DNA of 64,000 nt from Klenkia taihuensis (lineage in GTDB: Bacteria; Actinomycetota; Actinomycetes; Mycobacteriales; Geodermatophilaceae), in assembly GCF_900112525.1 (NCBI RefSeq), contig NZ_FOMD01000003.1, forward strand, positions 682,001-746,000, read 5' to 3'. The notes below the pieces were generated by a model that worked only from the letters and a program-made list of their open reading frames with translations, was not told the origin of the DNA and searched no databases. The position numbers were made by a program, and so were the translations under genes. Of this stretch, positions 51,656 to 62,707 are shown piece by piece. Numbering within the stretch: position 1 is the stretch's first letter; every line of letters begins with the position of its first letter.

Positions 51656-52948
51656 TCAGGAGAGGAGGTCGTCGAGGTCGCCGGTCATGCAGTGCTCGAC
51701 CACGGGGCGGACGGTCTCGAAGGTGCACTCCTTGGCGTTGCCCGGCGTGCAGGCGTCGCCGAGGACGTGGTGGGTGATCCGGTCGACGTCCTTGTCGTCC
51801 CCGGCGATGACCCCGGCGTTCTCGTAGAACTTCGTGGGGCCCTGGCCCAGCCGGTTCTTCGAGTAGGTGTCGGCCTTGACGTCGACGAAGCGCTCGGTGA
51901 TGCCGACGTCGCGCAGCAGCCGGATGGCGGCGGCCAGGGCGGCCTCGGCGGCCTGCACGTCGGTCATGCCGTAGGTGTCCACACCCATCGCGGTGGCCAG
52001 CTCGGCGAACCGCTTGTACTGGGTGGGCATGTTGAACGCCCAGACCCGCGGCAGCGCGATGGCGTTGTTGAGGCCGTGGTGGGTGTCGTAGAAGGCGCTC
52101 ACGGCGTGGCTGATCGAGTGGATGATGCCCAGGCCGCCGGAGTTGAAGGCCTGCGCGGCGATGTACTGGGCGTACATCATCCCCTCGCGGCCGGCCAAGT
52201 CCTGGCCGTTCCAGACCGCCTGGCGCAGGTTCTCCGCGGTCAGCTTGACCGCGTACAGGGCGTTGCCCAGCGAGGGGGCGAAGTTCAGCCGGCTGACGTA
52301 GGGCTCGGAGGCGTGCGCCAGGACGTCGAAGCCGCACTGCGCGGTGTAGTCGACCGGGCAGTCGTAGTAGAGCACCGGGTCGTCGATGGCCAGGGTGGTC
52401 ACCGAGGTGTCGTCGAAGGCGACGTACTTGTGCGGGTTGTCCGGGTCGGTCGTGGTGTCGGTGATGACGTAGGCCCAGGAGGTCTCCGAACCGGTGCCGG
52501 CGGTGGTGGAGACCGCGATGTGCGGCGGGTTCTTGGGGTTCTCGCTCTGGTTGAAGCCCTCGAACTCGTTGACGCTGCGGCCGTCGTGGGCCACCGAGAT
52601 GCGGGCGCCCTTGCAGGCGTCGTGGCTGGAGCCGCCGCCGATGGAGACGAAGCTGTCGCAGTCGTTCTCCTGGTAGAGCTTGACCGCGTCCATGACGTTG
52701 TAGTCCTTGGGGTTGGACTCCACCTTGTCGTAGACCACGACGTCCAGGCCGTGCCACTTCATGGACTCGGCGATCTTCTCCACGATGTTCGTGCCGCGCA
52801 GGCCCGACGTCATGATCAGCGACTTCCTGAAGCCGAGCTTCTTGGCCTCCGGGCCGATCAGCTCGTGGGCGCCCGGCCCGAGCATCGCCCGGGGGAACGG
52901 GTGGAACTCCTTGATCGGGAACGGCTTGAGCAGTTCTTCGACCTGCAT
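51656..52948 (-). CDS. mno: NDMA-dependent methanol dehydrogenase (mycofactocin-type)
   Basis: A 430-aa iron-type dehydrogenase close to the Mno/Mdo enzymes of mycobacteria and Amycolatopsis (FPIKEFHPFPRAMLGPGAHEL, IGGGSSHDACKGARISVAHDG, STTAGTGSETSWAYVITD). Ligands D208, H212, H281 and H291 are present. These decameric enzymes hold NADH tightly and need an external acceptor, in vivo mycofactocin, to oxidise methanol and other alcohols. ATG start. It is the first gene of a minus-strand unit with MoxR and vWA. The mycofactocin genes are not in the window. Confidence 0.9.
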   Translation of the reverse strand: MQVEELLKPFPIKEFHPFPRAMLGPGAHELIGPEAKKLGFRKSLIMTSGLRGTNIVEKIAESMKWHGLDVVVYDKVESNPKDYNVMDAVKLYQENDCDSFVSIGGGSSHDACKGARISVAHDGRSVNEFEGFNQSENPKNPPHIAVSTTAGTGSETSWAYVITDTTTDPDNPHKYVAFDDTSVTTLAIDDPVLYYDCPVDYTAQCGFDVLAHASEPYVSRLNFAPSLGNALYAVKLTAENLRQAVWNGQDLAGREGMMYAQYIAAQAFNSGGLGIIHSISHAVSAFYDTHHGLNNAIALPRVWAFNMPTQYKRFAELATAMGVDTYGMTDVQAAEAALAAAIRLLRDVGITERFVDVKADTYSKNRLGQGPTKFYENAGVIAGDDKDVDRITHHVLGDACTPGNAKECTFETVRPVVEHCMTGDLDDLLS

Positions 52949-53121: not shown

Positions 53122-54243
53122 TCAGCGTCCGTCGGCCCCGGTGGTGGATCGCCGGTGCGGCACGGAGGTGCGGTACAGGTCGAGGTGCGCGGCGGCCGCG
53201 CGGTCCCAGTCGTGCGCGGCGGCCAGCGCCCGGCCGGCGGCGACGCGCTGCTGGTCCTCCCCGGCCGACCCCGCGAGCAGGGCGGCGGCGAACCCGGCCG
53301 GCCCGCTCGCGAACGCCGCTGCCGGCCCGAAGACCTCGCGCAGCACCGGCAGGTCCCGGGTCACCACGGGCACGCCCGCGGCCAGCGCCTCCATGGCCGC
53401 CAGGCCGAAGCCCTCCTTGGTCGAGGGGAAGGCGAAGACCTCGGCGCCCGCGACGAGGGTCGGCAGCTGCTCGTGGTCGACCGGGCCCAGCACCACGGGG
53501 TGGACGGCGAGCTCGGCGGCACGGGCGTCGACCCGGGCGCGGTAGTCGCGGTAGTCGAACAGGGTCTCGCCGCCGGCGACGACCAGCTCCAGGTCCGGAC
53601 GGCGCCGCTGCACCACGGCCATCGCCTCGACGAGGTCCAGGGTGCCCTTGCGCGGTTCGATCCCGCCGACGGCGAGCACGTAACGGCCCAGCCGGGCGCG
53701 CCACCGCCCGCGCCCGGCGGCGCCGTCGGGCCCCGCGGCCACCGCGAACCGGGCCGCGTCGACCCCGTTCGGGATGACCGACGCCGTCCTCCCCCACCCC
53801 GCGGCGACCTCCGCCGCCACGGCCGAGGACACGCAGACCAGGGTGTGCGGGGTGACCACGGCCCGCTCGTGGCACGCCGCGAGCTCCGGGGTGGTGAAGG
53901 TGTCCAGGTGGTGCACGGTCCGCACGCAGTCGGGCACGGCGTTGGCCGAGATGCAGTCCTGGGCGTGCACGACGTCGTAGTCGGCGTCCTCGAACGCGGC
54001 CGCCAGCACCGCGATCGACCGCAGGATGCGCGCCCCGACGTCCTCCCCGGGCACGTCGGGGAACGGCACCAGCCGCAGCTCGACGGCCGGGTCGACCGGC
54101 CGGAAGAACGCGGCGTCCCCGCCCCGGCCCAGCGACCAGACGTGCACGACGTGCCCGGCCCGCGCCATCGCCTCGGCCAGCGCGAGCGTGTGCACCACCC
54201 CGCCGCGGGGCTTGGTGGAGTAGGTGAGCAGCGCGATCCTCAC
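53122..54243 (-). CDS. Glycosyltransferase (MSMEG_0565-like) of a Nit1C-type cluster
   Basis: A 373-aa GT-B glycosyltransferase of family 4 type: N-terminal RIALLTYSTKPRGGVVHTLALAEAMARAGHVVHVWSLG, central SVIPNGVDAARF and C-terminal FPSTKEGFGLAAMEALAAGVPVV with the E-x7-E motif. Its GTG start overlaps the stop of the upstream carbon-nitrogen hydrolase-like gene. In Nit1C clusters a glycosyltransferase of this kind is the last or first gene; the sugar acceptor is unknown. A 173-base gap with nothing seen separates it from mno. Confidence 0.87.
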   Translation of the reverse strand: MRIALLTYSTKPRGGVVHTLALAEAMARAGHVVHVWSLGRGGDAAFFRPVDPAVELRLVPFPDVPGEDVGARILRSIAVLAAAFEDADYDVVHAQDCISANAVPDCVRTVHHLDTFTTPELAACHERAVVTPHTLVCVSSAVAAEVAAGWGRTASVIPNGVDAARFAVAAGPDGAAGRGRWRARLGRYVLAVGGIEPRKGTLDLVEAMAVVQRRRPDLELVVAGGETLFDYRDYRARVDARAAELAVHPVVLGPVDHEQLPTLVAGAEVFAFPSTKEGFGLAAMEALAAGVPVVTRDLPVLREVFGPAAAFASGPAGFAAALLAGSAGEDQQRVAAGRALAAAHDWDRAAAAHLDLYRTSVPHRRSTTGADGR

Positions 54244-55055
54244 GAGTACGCCTCCGGTCGGAGCTCCCGCAGGTGGGAGAGCACGAGCCGGGAGCGGGTG
54301 ACCTCCCCGGCGACGTCCAGGTCGGCCACCGCCAGCCCGGCCTTGGCCCAGGTGCGGGCCAGCACGTCGCCCCCGGGGCCGACCACCTTGGACTGGCCGA
54401 GGAACCGCAGCCGGCCCATCGTCCCGGTCTGGTTGGCCGACACCACGACCACCTGGTTCTCCGCGGCCCGGGCGCAGTCGTAGAGGTCGAACAGCCGCGA
54501 CTGCCGGTCCTGCACCAGCCGCGGGGCCCGGTTGGTCAGCGACGCCGGCCAGGCGGACAGGCAGGCCAGCACGTGCGCGCCGTCGGCGGCGAGGGTCCGG
54601 GCGGCCTCGGGGAAGGTCTTGTCGTAGTCCACGAGCATGCCCAGCCGGCCCAGCGGGGTGTCGAAGGCGGTGAACGCATCCCCCGCGGCGTAGGCGGCGA
54701 GCTCGCCCGCGGGCTGGTGCACCTTGCGGTGCCGGCCGAGCACGCCGTCCCCGGTCAGGCAGACGGCGCTGTTGTAGAACCGTCCCCCGTGGGCCTCCCG
54801 GTAGGCCAGGCACACCACGGCCGGGCCGGCGGCGGCGGCCAGCCGGGCGAAGACGGCGTCGTCGGCGGCCAGCGCGGGCGGCAACCCGGTCTCCCCCACG
54901 GCGCCGAACCCGCCGAGGTAGCCGCCGAGGGTGGCGTCCGGGAACACCAGCAAGTCCACCCCCTGCGCGCGGGCGTCCGCGGCGATCGCCTCCACCTTCG
55001 CGGCGCAGGCCTCGACGTCCCGCCCGAAGTGGGCCGCGACGGCGGCGATCCTCAC
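54240..55055 (-). CDS. Carbon-nitrogen hydrolase homologue lacking catalytic residues
   Basis: A 271-aa nitrilase-superfamily protein with intact fold blocks (VEAIAADARAQGVDLLVFPDATLGGYLGG, HRKVHQPAGE, DYDKTFPEAARTLAADGA) but changed catalytic triad. The Glu position is D40, Lys K111 is kept, and the Cys position is D143 (LVDYDK instead of VICYDK). The neighbouring copy at 56383 has E41, K118, C150 at the matching places. It is therefore probably a pseudoenzyme, maybe a regulatory subunit or scaffold. GTG starts overlap genes on both sides. Confidence 0.88.
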   Translation of the reverse strand: MRIAAVAAHFGRDVEACAAKVEAIAADARAQGVDLLVFPDATLGGYLGGFGAVGETGLPPALAADDAVFARLAAAAGPAVVCLAYREAHGGRFYNSAVCLTGDGVLGRHRKVHQPAGELAAYAAGDAFTAFDTPLGRLGMLVDYDKTFPEAARTLAADGAHVLACLSAWPASLTNRAPRLVQDRQSRLFDLYDCARAAENQVVVVSANQTGTMGRLRFLGQSKVVGPGGDVLARTWAKAGLAVADLDVAGEVTRSRLVLSHLRELRPEAYS

Positions 55056-56386
55056 GCCCTGCCGGAGCCCGACGACGCCGCGGGCGGCGCGCCCCCCGGC
55101 CCGCTGGGCGCCCCCGCGGCGGCCAGCTCGGTGATGCGGTCGGCGACGAAGGCGGCGTCCCGGGCGATGCCGGAGAACCGGCCGGACCCCCAGGTGTGCA
55201 GCCACGGCAGCCCGAGCACGAACAGCCCCGGCGCGGACGTCACGCCCCGGGTGTGGGTCGGGTACCCGGCGCCGTCGAAGACCGGCACCCTCACCCACGA
55301 CCAGTCGGCCCGGAACCCGATCGCCCAGACGACGCCGGCGACGGCCGCGGTGTCCAGCTCGGTGGGGTCCTCGGACGGTGCCCAGACCGGGACGTAGCGG
55401 TCCTCGGCGGGGGCGTCGATGCCGGCCGCGGCGATGTGCCGGTCGATGAGGTCCTTGGCGCCGTCGTCGACGGCGTCGGCCCGGTCCAGGTGGGCGGTCA
55501 GGTTCGGCTCGAACCGCAGGACGCCGTCGCGCAGGCCGGCGAGGGTGCCGTAGAGCTGCATGCCCTGGAGCGCGAAGGTGCGCAGGTCGATGTCCCGGCC
55601 GCCGTCACGGCCGGTGACGTAGTGGTTGGTGCCGACCCGGGCGGCCTCGCCGTCGCGGTGCTGCTCCACCGGCACGTCGTAGTGGCCCAGGTCGTCCAGC
55701 CAGGCCACGACGTCGCGCCCGCGGTACCGGCGGGCGATCCGCGGCGCGCTGCCGACCGCGAGGTGCACCCGCCGCCCGGTGCCGCGGAAGGCCAGGTGCA
55801 GGTCCTCGGCGATCTGCGCGCCGGACTGGCCGGTGCCCACCACCAGGACGTCGCCCTCGGGCAGCTGGCCGGGGTTGCGGTACTGCTGGGAGTGCAGCTG
55901 CGTGATCCGCTCGGGCAGCGCGGAGGCCCAGGGCGGGACGACGGGCAGGTGGTAGCCGCCCACGGCCAGCACCACCTGGTCGGCGTGCAGCTCGCCCGCG
56001 CTGGTCGCCAGGGTGTACCCGCCCCCGGCGGCCGGGGACAGCCGGAGGACGGCGACGCCCTCGTGCACCGGCGGGTCGAAGGAGGCCGCGTAGGAGCGCA
56101 CGTACTCCACGACCTCGTCGCGCACCATGAAGCCGTCCGGGTCGTCGCCGCGGTAGGGCCAGCCGGGCAGCTGGCACTGCCAGTTCGGGGTGACCAGGCA
56201 GAAGGTGTCCCAGCGGGCGTCGACCCACTCGTGGGCGACCGTCGCCCGCTCCAGGACGACGTGCTCGACGCCGCGCTGCACCAGGTGCCAGGAGATCGAC
56301 AGCCCGGCCTGGCCACCGCCGACGACGGCGACCGGGACGTGCTGCGGGAGCGCGGTGCGGGGTGGGGCAGCCTCGGTGAGCGTCAT
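55052..56386 (-). CDS. Flavin-dependent oxidoreductase (MSMEG_0569-like)
   Basis: A 444-aa flavin monooxygenase-type protein: FAD motif VAVVGGGQAGLSISWHLVQRGVEHVVLE, HEWVDARWDTFCLVTPNWQCQLPGWPY, NADPH motif VLVVGTGQSGAQIAEDL and the C-terminal block LFVLGLPWLHTWGSGRFSGI. This matches the MSMEG_0569 family of Nit1C clusters. Its substrate is unknown; oxidation of a nitrogenous intermediate is a guess. ATG start at 56386 in an ATGA overlap. Confidence 0.9.
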   Translation of the reverse strand: MTLTEAAPPRTALPQHVPVAVVGGGQAGLSISWHLVQRGVEHVVLERATVAHEWVDARWDTFCLVTPNWQCQLPGWPYRGDDPDGFMVRDEVVEYVRSYAASFDPPVHEGVAVLRLSPAAGGGYTLATSAGELHADQVVLAVGGYHLPVVPPWASALPERITQLHSQQYRNPGQLPEGDVLVVGTGQSGAQIAEDLHLAFRGTGRRVHLAVGSAPRIARRYRGRDVVAWLDDLGHYDVPVEQHRDGEAARVGTNHYVTGRDGGRDIDLRTFALQGMQLYGTLAGLRDGVLRFEPNLTAHLDRADAVDDGAKDLIDRHIAAAGIDAPAEDRYVPVWAPSEDPTELDTAAVAGVVWAIGFRADWSWVRVPVFDGAGYPTHTRGVTSAPGLFVLGLPWLHTWGSGRFSGIARDAAFVADRITELAAAGAPSGPGGAPPAASSGSGRA

Positions 56387-57234
56387 GCGGGCACCGCCAG
56401 GCCGTAGGTGTCGGGACGGCGGTCGCGCAGGTGGCCCATCGACCGGCGCGCCCCCGCCAGCACCGCGCCGACGTCGACGGAGGCGACCGCCGTGCCGGGC
56501 GCGGTGCCGGTGGTGGCCAGCACGTCCCCGCCCGGGCCGACGACCTTGGCGCTGCAGACGAAGCGCAGCGAGCCGAAGGTGCCCGACTGGTTCGCCGACA
56601 CCCAGACGATCTGGTTCTCCAGCGCCCGGGCCCGGTCGAACAGGTCGAAGCGGTGGGTCCAGCGGTCCTCGGCGAGGTCGGCCGCGGCGCCGGTGCGGGA
56701 GCCCGGCCACGCCGACATGCAGACCACGACCTCCGCGCCGTCCACGGCCAGCGTGCGGGCCGCCTCGGGGAACGCCTTGTCGTAGCAGATCACCATGCCG
56801 ATCCGGCCCACCGGCGTCTCGAAGGCGGCGAACCCGTCGCCGGCGGCGTAGACGTTGGACTCCCCCAGCGGCTGGTGCACCTTCCGGTGGACGCCGAGCA
56901 CGCCGTCCCCGGTCACCGCGACGGCGGTGTTGTAGCGGTCGGCGCCGTCGGACTCGCACAACCCCGCGGTGACCACCATGTCCCCCGCGATGCGGGCCAG
57001 GCGGGCGACCTCGGGGCCGTCGACGTCCAGGGCGGGCGGGAGCGCGTGCTCGGGCAGCACCTCGGTGACCCCGGAGTCGCCGAGGGAGGCCAGGTAGCCG
57101 CCCAGGGTGGCCTCGGGCAGCGCCAGCAGCTGCACGCCCCGGGCCCGGGCGTCGGCGACGAGGCCCTCGATCCGGGCGAAGGCGGCGTCGAGGTCGCGCC
57201 CGAACGGGGCGGCGACGGCGGCGAAGGTGGTCAC
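56383..57234 (-). CDS. Carbon-nitrogen hydrolase (nitrilase/amidase superfamily), intact
   Basis: A 283-aa enzyme with the full Glu-Lys-Cys triad: E41 (LALPEATLGGY), K118 (HRKVHQP) and C150 (VICYDKAFPEAARTL). The sequence and size fit amidase-branch nitrilase-superfamily members. In Nit1C clusters a nitrilase is the hallmark, linked in Pseudomonas to growth on cyanide; here the branch is amidase-like, so nitrile versus amide specificity stays open. GTG start overlaps the GNAT-AIR gene. Confidence 0.9.
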   Translation of the reverse strand: MTTFAAVAAPFGRDLDAAFARIEGLVADARARGVQLLALPEATLGGYLASLGDSGVTEVLPEHALPPALDVDGPEVARLARIAGDMVVTAGLCESDGADRYNTAVAVTGDGVLGVHRKVHQPLGESNVYAAGDGFAAFETPVGRIGMVICYDKAFPEAARTLAVDGAEVVVCMSAWPGSRTGAAADLAEDRWTHRFDLFDRARALENQIVWVSANQSGTFGSLRFVCSAKVVGPGGDVLATTGTAPGTAVASVDVGAVLAGARRSMGHLRDRRPDTYGLAVPA

Positions 57235-58652
57235 GGGGACTCCTCGTGGGTGCGGGAGGCGCCCAGGCCGGTCACCGGACCGGCCAGGGCGGGGGTGGTC
57301 GAGCCGTCGGGCCAGCGCAGGTGCACGCCGGCGCCGGGGACCAGCTCGCCGCAGGTGGCGGTGGTGGCCGGTCCGGCGGGCGCGACGTCGCGGTCGGCGA
57401 CGTCGGTGGTGAGGAAGGCGGAGCCCGGGAAGCAGGTGAACCAGTCGCCGACGGTCGCCCCCGCCGGCCGGGGCACCGCGGCCACGTCCAGCACGGCGCC
57501 GCAGCCGCTGGCCTCGGCGAGCATCCCGAGCGTGCCGACCAGGCCGGCCATCGAGACGTCCTTCGCCGCGGCCGGGCCGGAGCGGGCCACGACCGACCCC
57601 ATCAGCCGCAGCTCCTCCGTGGTCCGCCCGGTGGTGGAGTCCCACTGCCGGCCGGTGGCACCGGGCCGCCAGCCCCCGCCCAGGTCGGCGGTCAGCCGGA
57701 CCCGCTGACCGGGCCGGCCGCCGGAGGCCGGGACGGGCCGGTCGGTGCGGCCCAGGGCGGTGACGCTCAGCGCCGCCGGGACGCCGAGCTGGGTGTGCCC
57801 GCCGAGCACCGGGACACCCCAGGCCTGCGACCCGGCGCGCAGCCCGGCCACGACGCGGGCCGCGAAGGAGGCGTCCCGGGCCCCGACGGCGTCGAGCAGG
57901 CCGACCGGGGCGGCGCCCATGGCGGACAGGTCGTTGACGTTGACCAGCACCCCGCACCAGCCGGCCCACCCGGGGTCGCGCTCGACCATCGACGGCAGGA
58001 TCGCGTCGCACGCGGCGACGACGTCGGTGCCGGGCACCGGGGCGCCGTCGTCCCCGACGAAGCCCGCCCCGCCCAGTCCCCCGTCCGCGGAGTGGAACCC
58101 GGCGAGCAGGCCGCCGAGCGGGGACTTGGTGGCCCGGGCCAGTGCGGCGAGACGGCCGATGGGCCAGGTCATCGCGGTGTGCGGGCGGCCGGCGACGGCC
58201 GCCGGACCCACGACCTGCCAGCCCAGCCGGGTGAACAGGCCGGCGTAGCGGTCCTGCACGGTGGCGTCGAAGCGCAGCGCGCCGGCCTGCTCGGCGCGCG
58301 CGCAGGCGGCGGCGACCAGCGCCGGTCCGACGCCGGGCGCGGTGCCGGGGGCGACCACCAGGCGGGAGCCGGTCCACCAGCCGACGTCGGCGCCGACCGG
58401 GGCCAGCCGCACCCCGCCGAGCACGGCGCCCTCGGGCCCCCGCGCCACCAGGACGACGGTGCGCGGGTCGGCGTCGGTGTCGTCGAGGTCGGTGCCGGCG
58501 AACAGGCCCTGCTCCTCGACGAAGGCCCGCTGCCGCAGCCGCCGGTGCGCGCGGACCGCGCCCGCGTCGGCCTCCTCGAGCCGCCACCCGGGCCGGGCGG
58601 GGGGCCGGCGGTGGTCCACCAGCAGCACGTTGTGCTCCAGGGGGTCGCTCAC
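57231..58652 (-). CDS. GNAT acetyltransferase-AIR synthase fusion (MSMEG_0567-like)
   Basis: A 473-aa fusion: an N-terminal GNAT domain (about 15-165; RLRQRAFVEEQGLF, LVVAPGTAPGVGPALVAAACARAEQAG) and a C-terminal PurM/AIR synthase-like domain (about 190-470; VNVNDLSAMGAAPVGLLDAVGA, VPVLGGHTQLGVPAALSVTALG, AKDVSMAGLVGTLGMLAEASG). In cyanobacteria the two parts are separate genes (Sll0786, Sll0787); mycobacteria have them joined. The reaction is unknown. GTG start in a GTGA overlap with the radical SAM gene. Confidence 0.88.
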   Translation of the reverse strand: MSDPLEHNVLLVDHRRPPARPGWRLEEADAGAVRAHRRLRQRAFVEEQGLFAGTDLDDTDADPRTVVLVARGPEGAVLGGVRLAPVGADVGWWTGSRLVVAPGTAPGVGPALVAAACARAEQAGALRFDATVQDRYAGLFTRLGWQVVGPAAVAGRPHTAMTWPIGRLAALARATKSPLGGLLAGFHSADGGLGGAGFVGDDGAPVPGTDVVAACDAILPSMVERDPGWAGWCGVLVNVNDLSAMGAAPVGLLDAVGARDASFAARVVAGLRAGSQAWGVPVLGGHTQLGVPAALSVTALGRTDRPVPASGGRPGQRVRLTADLGGGWRPGATGRQWDSTTGRTTEELRLMGSVVARSGPAAAKDVSMAGLVGTLGMLAEASGCGAVLDVAAVPRPAGATVGDWFTCFPGSAFLTTDVADRDVAPAGPATTATCGELVPGAGVHLRWPDGSTTPALAGPVTGLGASRTHEESP

Positions 58653-59725
58653 GCGCCCGCCGCCCCGAGTGCGCTGCACGCCCCGCAGGCCGCGCAGCCG
58701 GCGCCCTGGTCGAACCCCCGCATGCCGAGGGTCCGCAGCCCGGCGGCCACCCGGGTGGTGACGTCCGCGAGCACGGCCGGGTCGGGGGCGCCGACGCCGT
58801 CGGCCGCCGCGAGCGTCCCGGCCAGCGGCCGGTAGGGGACGACGAACGGGTAGACCCCCCGGCGGGCCAGGTCCAGCGCGCCGGCGACGAGTTCGTCGGG
58901 GTCCTCCCCCAGCCCGACCAGCAGGTAGGTGGACACCCGGTTGCGGCCGAACACCCGCACGGCCTCGGCCCAGGCGGCGTCGTACTGGCTCATCGGCACG
59001 CCGGCCTTGCCGGGCATCCAGCGGGACCGGACGGCGTCGTCCAGCGCCTCGACGTGGATGCCGATGGCGGTGGCCCCGGCGTCCTTGAGCTCGCCGATGG
59101 CTGCGAGGTCCTCGGGGGCCGGTGGCTCGCACTGCACCTGGACCGGCAGGCCGGGCACCGCCGCGGTGACCGCCCGGACGCAGCGGGCCAGGTGCCGGGC
59201 GCCGCGGTCCCGGCCGTTGGTGGTCCCGGTGGTCATCACCATCTGCCGCACCCCGTCCAGCCGGACGGCGGCCTCGGCCACCTCGGCGAGCTGGGCCGGC
59301 GTCTTCACCGCGGTGGTGGCGCCGGCGGCGAGGCTCGCCTCGATGGCGCAGAACCGGCAGCGGTCGGCCTCGTCGTAGCGGATGCAGGTCTGCACCACGG
59401 TGGTGGCCAGCACGTCCTTGCCGTGCAGCCGGGCGAGCTTCTCGTAGGGCACGCCGTCGGCGGTGGTGAGGTCGTAGAAGCGGGGGCGCTCGACCGCCTC
59501 GGCGTCGAGGCCGAGGTCGGCGCCGTCGAGCAGCAGGCGTCCCCCGCTGATCGAGTAGGGGCTGTCGGGGTTGAGCGGGACCGCCGTGCCCGCGCCGTCG
59601 AGCAGCACGTGGCCGTCGTCGCTGGGGCCCGCCCCGGCCCGTCGCCGGACCGGGGCGTCGACCCGGACGCCGAGGATCGCGAGGTCGACGCGGTGGCCCA
59701 CCCGCGTACCCGTCGTCGGGGTCAT
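58649..59725 (-). CDS. Radical SAM protein (MSMEG_0568-like)
   Basis: A 358-aa radical SAM enzyme with the [4Fe-4S] cysteines C114, C123, C126. The spacing is C-x8-C-x2-C (CIRYDEADRCRFC), not the usual C-x3-C-x2-C. The C-terminus ends with a second Cys set C344, C347, C350 (GCAACGACSAL) that could hold an auxiliary cluster. It is a core member of Nit1C clusters; its product is unknown. ATG start. Ten bases separate it from the upstream nitrogen-starvation gene. Confidence 0.9.
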   Translation of the reverse strand: MTPTTGTRVGHRVDLAILGVRVDAPVRRRAGAGPSDDGHVLLDGAGTAVPLNPDSPYSISGGRLLLDGADLGLDAEAVERPRFYDLTTADGVPYEKLARLHGKDVLATTVVQTCIRYDEADRCRFCAIEASLAAGATTAVKTPAQLAEVAEAAVRLDGVRQMVMTTGTTNGRDRGARHLARCVRAVTAAVPGLPVQVQCEPPAPEDLAAIGELKDAGATAIGIHVEALDDAVRSRWMPGKAGVPMSQYDAAWAEAVRVFGRNRVSTYLLVGLGEDPDELVAGALDLARRGVYPFVVPYRPLAGTLAAADGVGAPDPAVLADVTTRVAAGLRTLGMRGFDQGAGCAACGACSALGAAGA

Positions 59726-59735
59726 GGCCGCGCGG

Positions 59736-60269
59736 TCAGAGGTTGTAGGTGCTGTTGATGATGGCGCCCTTGCGGGCGTAGTGGATGAGCGCGTCCTGCA
59801 CGTCCAGCGGGTGGCACGGGATGCACCCGGCGATCAGGTCCTCCTCGCGCAGGCCGTGCAGGCTCAGCCCGAAGCGGCAGACGTAGACCGTGCCGCCCTC
59901 CTCGATGAACTTCTCGATCTGGGCGTTGATGTTCTGCTCGCCCGGGAACGCCGAGTCCCCGGTGGTGGGGAACCCGCGGGTGGCCATGGCGTTCATCGCG
60001 GCCGGGCCGTAGAAGTAGAGGACCGACTCGAAGCCCTTGCGCAGCGCCCGCAGCGCCTGCAGGCAGGCCACGAAGCTGACCGAGGACTCGTGCGCGATGC
60101 CGTGCACCAGGGTGAAGTAGCTCTCGCCCTCGCCCGCCTGGTAGTCGGGGAAGATCTTGGTCGAGCCGTACAGGTTGCTGCCCTTGGGCAGCGACGGGTG
60201 CGGGATCTCGGCGAGGCTGGCCTCGGCGTTGGCCTTGATCTCCTCGGGCGTGGCAAGGGGCGTGGTCAC
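59736..60269 (-). CDS. MSMEG_0572/Sll0783-like nitrogen starvation response protein
   Basis: A 177-aa DsrE-like fold protein: NLYGSTKIFPDYQAGEGESYFTLVHGIAHESSVSFVACLQALRALRKGFESVLYFYGPAAMNAMATRGFP, with Cys at IAGCIPCHPLD. This family is induced in nitrogen starvation in mycobacteria and cyanobacteria. Its partner function is unknown. ATG start. It is the second gene of the minus-strand cluster. Confidence 0.9.
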   Translation of the reverse strand: MTTPLATPEEIKANAEASLAEIPHPSLPKGSNLYGSTKIFPDYQAGEGESYFTLVHGIAHESSVSFVACLQALRALRKGFESVLYFYGPAAMNAMATRGFPTTGDSAFPGEQNINAQIEKFIEEGGTVYVCRFGLSLHGLREEDLIAGCIPCHPLDVQDALIHYARKGAIINSTYNL

Positions 60270-60299
60270 GGGGCGTCCTCCTGGTGGTGGGTGCTGCGG

Positions 60300-61142
60300 T
60301 CAGGTCAGGCGGTGGAGCTGCTCGAAGTTGCGGCGGAAGACCAGGTCGGCGAGCTCGCCGTCCCCGGTCGCCGCCGCGAGGCGGGCGTGCTCGCCCTCGA
60401 AGTCGCCCCAGGGCTGGTCGGAGGCGAACAGCAGGCGGTCGTGGCCGGCGCCGTGCCGCTCGATCTCGGCGGCGAACCAGCGCGGGGCGAAGCCGATGGC
60501 CCAGCTGGTGTCGGTGTAGACCCGCTTGCCGGCCGCGACCCAGGCGAAGAACCTCTGGCCGACGAGCTTGATGTGGCCGCTCATGCCCCCGCCCATGTGC
60601 ACCAGGTGCACGGCGACGTCGTCGGCGTACTCGTCGACCAGCAGCCCGACCTCGTCGAGGTCGCTGGCCGCGCCCGGGCTGGTGTGCACGTGGACGACCA
60701 GGCCGTGCTGGCGGGCGGCGGCGAAGATCGCGTCCAGCTGCGGCCGGCAGGCCTCGTCGGTGACCCGGCCGCCGAGCAGGAACGACAGCTTCAGGGCGCT
60801 GACGCCCCGCTCACCGGCGAGGGCGAGCGCCTTCTCCGTCGCCACGGCGTCCTGCGGCCGGGGGCTGGTCCACAGCCCGGCCCGGATCCGCTCGTCGGTC
60901 TGCGCCGCCTCGACGACCAGCTCGTTGAGCGCGAAGGACGCCGTCGGGTCGGGCACCCCGTAGTTCGGGATGACCAGCGCGGCCTCGGTGCCCTCGCGGT
61001 CCAGGTCGGCCACCAGCTCGGCGATCGTGGCCCGGGCGGTGGTGTCCGGGTTGACCGGCGGGCCGCCGTAGAACGGGTGCGCCGGCAGGACGCCGAGGTG
61101 CCGGTGCGCGTCGTGCACCCGCTGCCGCCGCCCCGTCGTCAT
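60300..61142 (-). CDS. Amidohydrolase-family protein heading the Nit1C-type cluster
   Basis: A 280-aa TIM-barrel hydrolase (PF04909 type): N-terminal VHDAHRHLGVLPAH, ALKLSFLLGG, VVHVHTSPG, VHLVHMGGG and LLFASDQPWGDF. These give the likely metal ligands H, H, H and D. It starts the operon and is followed 30 bases later by the nitrogen-starvation gene. It could hydrolyse an amide or decarboxylate a product; the substrate is unknown. ATG start. The gene lies next to the divergent riboswitch region. Confidence 0.85.
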   Translation of the reverse strand: MTTGRRQRVHDAHRHLGVLPAHPFYGGPPVNPDTTARATIAELVADLDREGTEAALVIPNYGVPDPTASFALNELVVEAAQTDERIRAGLWTSPRPQDAVATEKALALAGERGVSALKLSFLLGGRVTDEACRPQLDAIFAAARQHGLVVHVHTSPGAASDLDEVGLLVDEYADDVAVHLVHMGGGMSGHIKLVGQRFFAWVAAGKRVYTDTSWAIGFAPRWFAAEIERHGAGHDRLLFASDQPWGDFEGEHARLAAATGDGELADLVFRRNFEQLHRLT

Positions 61143-61516: not shown

Positions 61517-62707
61517 GTGCCCCACCCCCCGATCCACCTCGTCGCCGCCCTCGACGGCGCCGGCTGGCACCCCGCCGCCTGGCGCGAACCCGGCGCCCGC
61601 CCGGCCGAGCTGCTGACCGCCGGCTACTGGAGCGACCTGGTGCAGGAGGCCGAGCGCGGTCTGCTGGACGCGGTCACCCTCGAGGACGCCTTCGCCCTGC
61701 AGTCCGACGACCCGTTCGTCGCCGACGACCGCACCGACCGGGTCCGCGGCCGGCTGGACGCCGTGCTCGTCGCTGCCCGGGTCGCGCCGACCACCCGGCA
61801 CATCGGCTTCCTCCCGACCGCCGTGGTCACCCACACCGAGCCGTTCCACCTGTCCAAGGCCATCGCCACGCTGGACTACGTGAGCTCCGGCCGGGCCGGG
61901 GTCCGCGTGCAGGTGGCCGCCCGGCCCGACGTCGCCGCGCACCTGGGACGCCGCGAGCTGCCGCCGGTCGACCGGGACGCCGTGGCCACCGCCCCGGTGG
62001 TCGTCGAGCTGTTCGACGAGGCCGCGGACTACGTGGAGGTCCTGCGCCGGCTGTGGGACAGCTGGGAGGACGACGCGGAGATCCGCGACGCCGCCACCGG
62101 GCGGTTCGTCGACGTCGACAAGCTGCACTACATCGACTTCGAGGGCCGGCACTTCTCCGTCCGCGGGCCCTCCATCACCCCGCGTCCCCCGCAGGGGCAG
62201 CCCCTCGTGGCCGCCCTCGGCCACGCCGAGGTGCCCTGGCGGCTGATCGGGCGCAGCGCCGACGTCGGCTTCGTGACGCCCACCGACGCCGCGGACGCCG
62301 CCCGCCTGGTCGCCGCCGTCCGCACCGAGCAGGCCGCGGCCGGCCGGGAGGCCGAGACCGTGCACGTGCTCGGCGACCTGCTCGTCGTGCTCGACGACGA
62401 CGCCACCGCGGCGGCCGACCGGCTGGCCCGGCTCGACGACGTCGCCGGCGCCCCGCTGCGCAGCGACGCCCGGGTGTTCACCGGCACCCCGGCCCAGCTC
62501 GCCGACCTGCTGATGGAGTGGCAGCGGGCGGGGCTGACCGGGTTCCGGCTGCGGCCCGCCGTCCTGCCCGACGACCTGGAGCAGGTCACCCGCGGGCTGG
62601 TGCCCGAGCTGCAGCGCCGCGGAGCCTTCCGCACCGGGTACGAGGCGGCGACCCTGCGGGGCCTGCTCGGCCTGGGCCGCCCCGCCAACCGCTACGCCAC
62701 CGCCTGA
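61517..62707 (+). CDS. Luciferase-like (LLM class) flavin-dependent monooxygenase
   Basis: A 396-aa TIM-barrel flavoprotein: IHLVAALDGAGWHPAAWREP, GLLDAVTLEDAFALQ, GFLPTAVVTHTEPFHLSKAIATLDYVSSGRAGVRV and HFSVRGPSITPRPPQGQPLV. These mark the bacterial luciferase/alkanesulfonate monooxygenase superfamily with reduced FMN as cosubstrate. The SAM-IV-like riboswitch before it suggests a role in sulfur scavenging from organosulfur compounds. The GTG start has GGAGGAG upstream. The next gene is a second LLM enzyme. Confidence 0.87.
   Translation: MPHPPIHLVAALDGAGWHPAAWREPGARPAELLTAGYWSDLVQEAERGLLDAVTLEDAFALQSDDPFVADDRTDRVRGRLDAVLVAARVAPTTRHIGFLPTAVVTHTEPFHLSKAIATLDYVSSGRAGVRVQVAARPDVAAHLGRRELPPVDRDAVATAPVVVELFDEAADYVEVLRRLWDSWEDDAEIRDAATGRFVDVDKLHYIDFEGRHFSVRGPSITPRPPQGQPLVAALGHAEVPWRLIGRSADVGFVTPTDAADAARLVAAVRTEQAAAGREAETVHVLGDLLVVLDDDATAAADRLARLDDVAGAPLRSDARVFTGTPAQLADLLMEWQRAGLTGFRLRPAVLPDDLEQVTRGLVPELQRRGAFRTGYEAATLRGLLGLGRPANRYATA

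Follow-up and report, generated by a model that had tools for sequence, protein, structure and literature searches.

A nitrilase-fold twin with aspartate at the nucleophile position in an actinobacterial nitrogen-starvation gene cluster

Introduction

The genes MSMEG_0565-0572 of Mycobacterium smegmatis form the gpr operon, which is induced through GlnR on nitrogen starvation and whose deletion renders nitrogen-starved cells sensitive to peroxide (PMC6039565). The same source terms MSMEG_0566 a putative aliphatic amidase and a possible contributor to nitrogen assimilation, and suggests that MSMEG_0571 and 0569 are linked by selenocysteine read-through. In two transcriptome studies, the genes responding to nitrogen or GlnR include 0566, listed as an aliphatic amidase, and 0571, listed as a carbon-nitrogen hydrolase (PMC4222082, PMC4617892). 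Two further systems are relevant for comparison: the Nit1C cluster, which was defined around a subfamily-1 nitrilase (PMC1199592) and is the object of cyanide work in Pseudomonas (PMC11049912), and BCG_2279c, a second apolipoprotein N-acyltransferase homologue (PMC3850990). Here we analyze a gene cluster of Klenkia taihuensis located in a stretch of 64,000 nucleotides (contig NZ_FOMD01000003.1, positions 682,001 to 746,000), hereafter the window. The cluster encodes two carbon-nitrogen hydrolases, one with the catalytic cysteine (the Cys copy) and one with an aspartate in its place (the Asp copy).

Results

Both hydrolases belong to the carbon-nitrogen hydrolase (nitrilase) superfamily, as indicated by PF00795 matches and by a predicted alpha-beta-beta-alpha fold (AlphaFold predicted local distance difference test, pLDDT, of 94.7 for the Asp copy and 94.1 for the Cys copy). 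Here and below, NCBIfam (TIGR) and Pfam profiles were judged against their curated cut-offs. The Cys copy (56383..57234, minus strand, GTG start at 57234; PF00795 133.7 bits, cut-off 23.2) carries E41, K118 and C150, with E125 as second Glu. The Asp copy (54240..55055, minus strand, GTG start at 55055; 117.8 bits against the same cut-off) has D40, K111 and D143, with E118 as second Glu; by sequence and alignment, the GAC codon of D143 (54627..54629, minus strand) stands at the place of the catalytic cysteine. The distance from the lysine to the nucleophile position is 32 in both copies and their columns align with each other. The triad residues and this spacing are those that the original prediction, made from the DNA letters, had assigned to an active and a dead copy, and alignment to solved relatives (7ovg and 6ypa for the Asp copy, 3ivz for the Cys copy) upheld them. 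The nucleophile place reads A in 7ovg and 6ypa, the latter being titled a C146A variant, and 3ivz is the best Foldseek match of both predicted folds. In two solved members of the superfamily a Glu is hydrogen-bonded to the Lys (PMC4700190), and both copies keep the second Glu near the Lys.

The Glu-Lys-Cys triad is intact in the Cys copy, Glu and Cys being kept in 111/111 paired Cys copies (see below), and broken in the Asp copy, where Asp occupies the Cys place in 111/111. The original prediction had allowed that another cysteine might take over in the Asp copy; this was not seen, as none of its five cysteines (C17, C82, C99, C165 and C194) is at the nucleophile elbow, and a substitute Cys was rejected. 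C82 (codon 54810-54812), which lies on another strand, is the best conserved of these and is kept in 109/111 Asp copies; its column varies in the Cys copies (V, T, C, A).

The distribution of the two copies was determined by a protein search of 393 unselected genomes of the class (E <= 1e-50), which is independent of residue 143. Regions were fetched from 48 other matching genomes and from ten more, the window's own included. Matches were obtained in 49 of the 393 genomes, counting that of the window: 32 with both copies in the cluster (window included), 16 with the Cys copy only and one with an orphan Asp copy. The recurrence of the Cys-to-Asp change, proposed as a check on the original prediction, was borne out: all 33 Asp copies of this sample (window counted) have Asp at the Cys place, K111 and E118. 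At position 40 they carry D (26 copies), G (5), H (1) or Q (1). All 48 Cys copies keep Lys and Cys; the Glu is present in 47 and is lost to a contig end in the other (L164). At E <= 1e-60, 54/393 genomes match the radical SAM family TIGR04043: all 48 that have a Cys copy, plus six weaker-scoring ones with no match in the hydrolase search; among 14 control genomes, only Synechococcus elongatus carried it.

A second set of named loci comprised the best 80 of at least 245 relatives, one of the six peptide search patterns used containing the Asp. Within these best 80, the loci nearest to the Asp copy of the window come from Klenkia and a Modestobacter, followed by other genera, which we take to be Geodermatophilaceae. 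Four Rhodococcus plasmids carry a relative of the Asp copy with 64-66% identity, annotated as a carbon-nitrogen hydrolase family protein in three of them, the record of the fourth being without annotation. The 192 full-length hydrolases first extracted divided into 95 of Asp type (92 with Asp-Lys-Asp, DKD; 2 YKD and 1 GKD), partly picked by the Asp-containing pattern and with some genomes repeated, 81 of Cys type and 16 others, the last two groups being all Glu-Lys-Cys (EKC). The orphan Asp copy of the class sample (L173:7342-8205, genome G082) has D40/K111/D143; no other cluster gene was found in the 15 kb fetched around it and no TIGR04043 match at E <= 1e-60 in its genome. Another orphan hydrolase (L193:7380-8189, genome G047) falls on the Cys side of the tree; its extracted frame lacks the triad at the aligned columns and may be broken, or the wrong frame may have been chosen. 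Combined, these results identify an ancient Cys-to-Asp twin that recurs across the class beside a normal enzyme in many actinobacterial genera.

In a tree of 104 rows, supported branches (95/92 and 98/87) set off the 40 Asp copies and the 54 Cys copies as separate groups, distinct from nine outside hydrolases, the outgroup branches being long. The Asp and Cys copies thus form two clades from one old duplication. Conservation was compared in 111 unique Asp-Cys pairs drawn from 116, the named part of which was found partly with the Asp-containing pattern. D143, K111 and E118 are unchanged in 111/111 Asp copies and R110, H113, D145 and K146 are likewise invariant, whereas position 40 is D in 102, G in 5, Y in 2, H in 1 and Q in 1. 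That the three residues are fixed while position 40 drifts speaks for a kept site, for ligand binding or new chemistry, rather than decay. Over 268 shared columns, mean entropy is 0.837 in the Asp copies and 0.942 in the Cys copies, and 87 and 86 columns, respectively, are at least 98% conserved. The lowest-entropy of the 259 13-residue segments of the Asp copy is 139-151, around D143, with 188-201 level (0.18 bits). T147, Q185, L188, Y192 and A198 are near-fixed and specific to the Asp copy; they are located next to the elbow or in the 184-200 helix.

Selection on the two copies was estimated from the ratio of nonsynonymous to synonymous substitution rates (dN/dS) in 12 close pairs, which ranges from 0.11 to 0.36 in the Asp copy and from 0.11 to 0.27 in the Cys copy. 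In a motif scan of 301 extracted hydrolase frames, genome repeats included, 135/135 Asp-type codons are GAC, and the Cys-type codons are TGC (97) or TGT (17). As GAC is two bases away from TGC and is found every time, the Asp is not a read error, and a sequencing error missing from close relatives, which the original prediction had named as a possible objection, is ruled out. The Asp twin is a real, old and selected variant of a known fold, and the retention of the Asp across the class points to a real job for it rather than decay.

The gene following the Asp copy is nearly constant: 38 of the 40 survey Asp copies are followed by the glycosyltransferase as the next cluster gene detected, and so are those of 79 of the 80 named loci, the contig of the remaining one (L105) ending soon after. 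Among the 16 clusters without an Asp copy, 14 gave no TIGR04046-type (flavoprotein) match in the fetched region, two of these regions (L188, L191) beginning at a contig end; all 14 come from one family (f30, genera g78 and g89). Two of these 14 loci (L176:8018-9616 and L179:8096-10027) contain, between the Cys copy and the glycosyltransferase, a frame with a flavin adenine dinucleotide (FAD)-binding start, and that of L176 has only weak NCBIfam matches to FAD-dependent oxidoreductases. A flavoprotein swap as the cause of Asp-copy loss was rejected: L169 has a similar-looking flavoprotein-like frame yet keeps its Asp copy, so that the link between flavoprotein change and Asp loss is not strict.

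In the window, eight minus-strand open reading frames span 53122-61142 (host genome 4.3 Mb). In the order of transcription, the row starts with an amidohydrolase (60300..61142; PF04909 58.4 bits, cut-off 26.4), followed by an MSMEG_0572/Sll0783 family nitrogen starvation response protein (59736..60269; TIGR04044 241, cut-off 109.85), an MSMEG_0568 family radical SAM protein (58649..59725; TIGR04043 498.2, cut-off 303.7) and a GNAT-AIR synthase-like (AIRS) fusion of the MSMEG_0567 family, the start of which is uncertain (57231..58670; TIGR04050 485.6, cut-off 312.2; TIGR04045 80.7, cut-off 68.45). The Cys copy comes next, then an MSMEG_0569 family flavin-dependent oxidoreductase (55052..56386; TIGR04046 638.2 bits, cut-off 498.35), the Asp copy and, directly downstream of it, an MSMEG_0565 family glycosyltransferase (53122..54243; TIGR04047 454.6 bits, cut-off 259.85). 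Stop and start overlap by 4 bases at four junctions, GNAT-AIRS/Cys, Cys/flavoprotein, flavoprotein/Asp and Asp/glycosyltransferase. The row is therefore of the MSMEG_0565-0572 type that had been predicted, with seven of the eight families: the window's genome contains nothing credible for the MSMEG_0570 family (TIGR04042; best E 0.94), and the PF04909 amidohydrolase is additional. A scan for GlnR boxes upstream of the row gave none that is clear: AC-n9-AC occurs four times as a raw count, and GTnAC-n6-GnnAC is absent. Just downstream of the row lies an NDMA-dependent methanol dehydrogenase (TIGR04266; window 51656-52948), a family that has no match in the 80 named loci (about 6 kb of flank where the contig allows). 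On the other side, a divergent flavin mononucleotide (FMN) monooxygenase near the NtaA/DmoA family is present at window 61517-62707 (TIGR03860 271.5 bits, cut-off 279.7).

The survey loci L166, L167, L168 and L170 and the named locus L086 (Gordonia paraffinivorans) show the order 0572-Cys-0569-0568-0567-Asp-0565; PF04909 has no match in the four survey loci. By gene order alone, MSMEG_0566 is the counterpart of the Asp copy and MSMEG_0571 that of the Cys copy. In 39/80 named loci the flavoprotein is at the far end of the cluster and not beside the Cys copy, an arrangement that fits poorly with a general 0571-0569 read-through.

The Nit1C-type label of the original prediction holds for the accessory families, TIGR04043, TIGR04045, TIGR04050, TIGR04046 and TIGR04044 being present together over their cut-offs; a separate sll0787-type TIGR04049 is below cut-off in the window (176.9 against 321.3). 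It does not hold for the hydrolases. With the profile of the subfamily-1 (Nit6803-type) nitrilase, TIGR04048, they score 53.2 and 36.1 bits against a cut-off of 502.6, and across the window's genome the best match, 51.8 bits, is the Cys copy itself, the control Synechococcus elongatus being over cut-off. TIGR04048 exceeds its cut-off in none of 13 genomes searched, including the six with a weak TIGR04043 match; three of these six have TIGR04048 matches (201-257 bits) that lie on a different contig from their radical SAM gene. As neither hydrolase is the Nit1C nitrilase, the suggested link to cyanide is weakened, and the Pseudomonas work does not directly carry over.

Discussion

We propose, with a probability of about 45%, that the Asp copy is an old functional pseudo-hydrolase with a kept K111-E118-D143 binding site, which may act as a binding or regulatory partner in the nitrogen-starvation pathway. 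As the tree shows, the two copies arose by a single duplication that preceded the uptake or spread of the cluster in the actinobacterial lineages of today. The Asp copy has lost the Cys nucleophile, always to Asp, and the Glu base; its fold, its Lys, its second Glu and its nucleophile elbow are retained. Judging from the family mechanism, a protein that has lost both nucleophile and base should be unable to carry out thioester or thioimidate chemistry. D143 may take over the ion pair to K111; replacing the Glu in this way would explain the free drift of position 40. The site could then bind, without cleaving, an amide- or nitrile-like metabolite of the pathway or an anionic effector, and the protein would presumably act near the flavoprotein or the Cys hydrolase. 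A scaffold that had done with the old centre should let that centre drift; K111, E118 and D143 do not, which argues that the site is kept.

Several observations weigh against this proposal. Both the pocket and the ion pair are read from sequence. The Asp copy is absent from 16 of the 48 class-sample clusters, so that not every version of the pathway needs it. The lowest-entropy segment of the Cys copy is also at the elbow (141-153, 0.22 bits), and part of the constraint there may be structural; in any case, 87 of the 268 columns reach 98% conservation or more in the Asp copy. The columns of R180, W211 and F220 are among nine in which the Cys copies are strict and the Asp copies free (11 show the reverse), and part of the old substrate site may therefore have relaxed or changed. 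Finally, dN/dS is higher in the Asp copy than in the Cys copy in 9/12 pairs.

The original prediction had a heteromer or scaffold role for a pseudoenzyme beside its active paralogue. Its first half, an intact, selected pseudo-hydrolase recurring across the class, stands; the partnership with the Cys copy is more doubtful. In such a heteromer, the two copies would meet at the dimer surface of the superfamily and the Asp copy would stabilise or tune the Cys copy, which we consider rather unlikely although it has points in its favour. All superfamily crystal structures but one were dimeric at the time of PMC4700190, and a Cys copy accompanies the Asp copy in 31/31 class-sample clusters besides the window and in 78/80 named loci, the other two (L069 and L084) being contigs of 4876 and 9591 bases beyond whose ends it may lie. 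Positions C93, Q121 and W192 of the Cys copy vary more freely in the 16 Asp-less clusters; however, this relaxation is confined to, and confounded by, one clade, and the Asp-less loci outside it (L189 and L190) keep the three residues. In a partial mirror-tree analysis of seven genes and 33 loci, a weak test on non-independent data, the Asp-Cys correlation (+0.017) is lower than those of Asp with the flavoprotein (+0.334) and with GNAT/AIRS (+0.311); the other pairs gave +0.121 (0572), +0.106 (glycosyltransferase) and -0.014 (radical SAM). Furthermore, one or three genes separate the copies in many loci, the Asp copy of L173 exists without a cluster, and a heteromer by way of gene fusion was discarded, no fused frame being found among the 301 hydrolase frames, the longest of which has 399 amino acids. 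A specific Asp-Cys heteromer is thus unsupported.

The invariance of D143, K111, E118, R110, H113, D145 and K146, a replacement that is always Asp and never another residue, and the Asp-specific near-fixed residues nearby in sequence would also suit a repurposed enzyme, in which D143, together with K111 and E118, acts on another substrate, either as nucleophile or as acid/base. This is less probable again than the heteromer: 9/111 Asp copies have G, Y, H or Q instead of D at the base position, and we know of no carbon-nitrogen hydrolase with an Asp nucleophile. Its boldest form would be something of a long shot: a nitrilase fold with active catalysis by a new mechanism, in which an invariant Asp-Lys-Glu centre replaces Glu-Lys-Cys and the substrate is an intermediate produced by the flavoprotein, radical SAM or AIR synthase-like proteins of the cluster. 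The loss of a catalytic residue, taken alone, could equally mark a decaying relic or a sequence error, but the two-base codon change in 135/135, a dN/dS well below 1, the class-wide retention and the full-length frames reduce its chance to almost nil, and codon, conservation and selection data together rule it out. The choice would accordingly lie between a ligand-binding pseudoenzyme, a heteromer subunit and a repurposed enzyme, as far as sequence can guide it, and the ligand-binding pseudo-hydrolase is the reading that we prefer.

As far as the searches made reach, the literature gives no description of an inactive nitrilase paralogue of this kind: two papers mention both terms once or twice, and the 15 listed of a further 210 matches were unrelated by title. 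The family is spread across many actinobacterial genera and labelled amidase or carbon-nitrogen hydrolase; its nucleophile is gone, yet it is about as conserved as its active twin. It is a clear natural example of a nitrilase fold that has lost its nucleophile while retaining the site, and offers a handle on the chemistry of the nitrogen-starvation cluster.

The window and the gpr cluster are composed of the same gene families, with the differences that the window lacks the 0570 family, has an extra amidohydrolase and shows another gene order. MSMEG_0566 is called an amidase in print, whereas the Asp copy, matched to it by gene order, is without the residues for that activity; if the gene order holds, the view in print that MSMEG_0566 may release nitrogen as an amidase would be corrected. 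With Nit1C the window shares the radical SAM, GNAT, AIR synthase-like, flavin oxidoreductase and Sll0783-type families, but its hydrolases, two in number and one of them lacking the Cys, are not subfamily-1 nitrilases. BCG_2279c and the Asp copy are both inactive-looking paralogues with a carbon-nitrogen hydrolase domain in actinobacteria; BCG_2279c reportedly has an altered active site, but is said to be a membrane enzyme with another substitution and in another pathway. Compared with 3ivz and the nitrilase-superfamily amidases of the N-carbamoylputrescine amidase type, the Asp copy has the fold and the Lys-Glu motif in common, with 20-27% identity among the Foldseek matches listed, and differs by the replacement of the Cys and of the first Glu, both by Asp.

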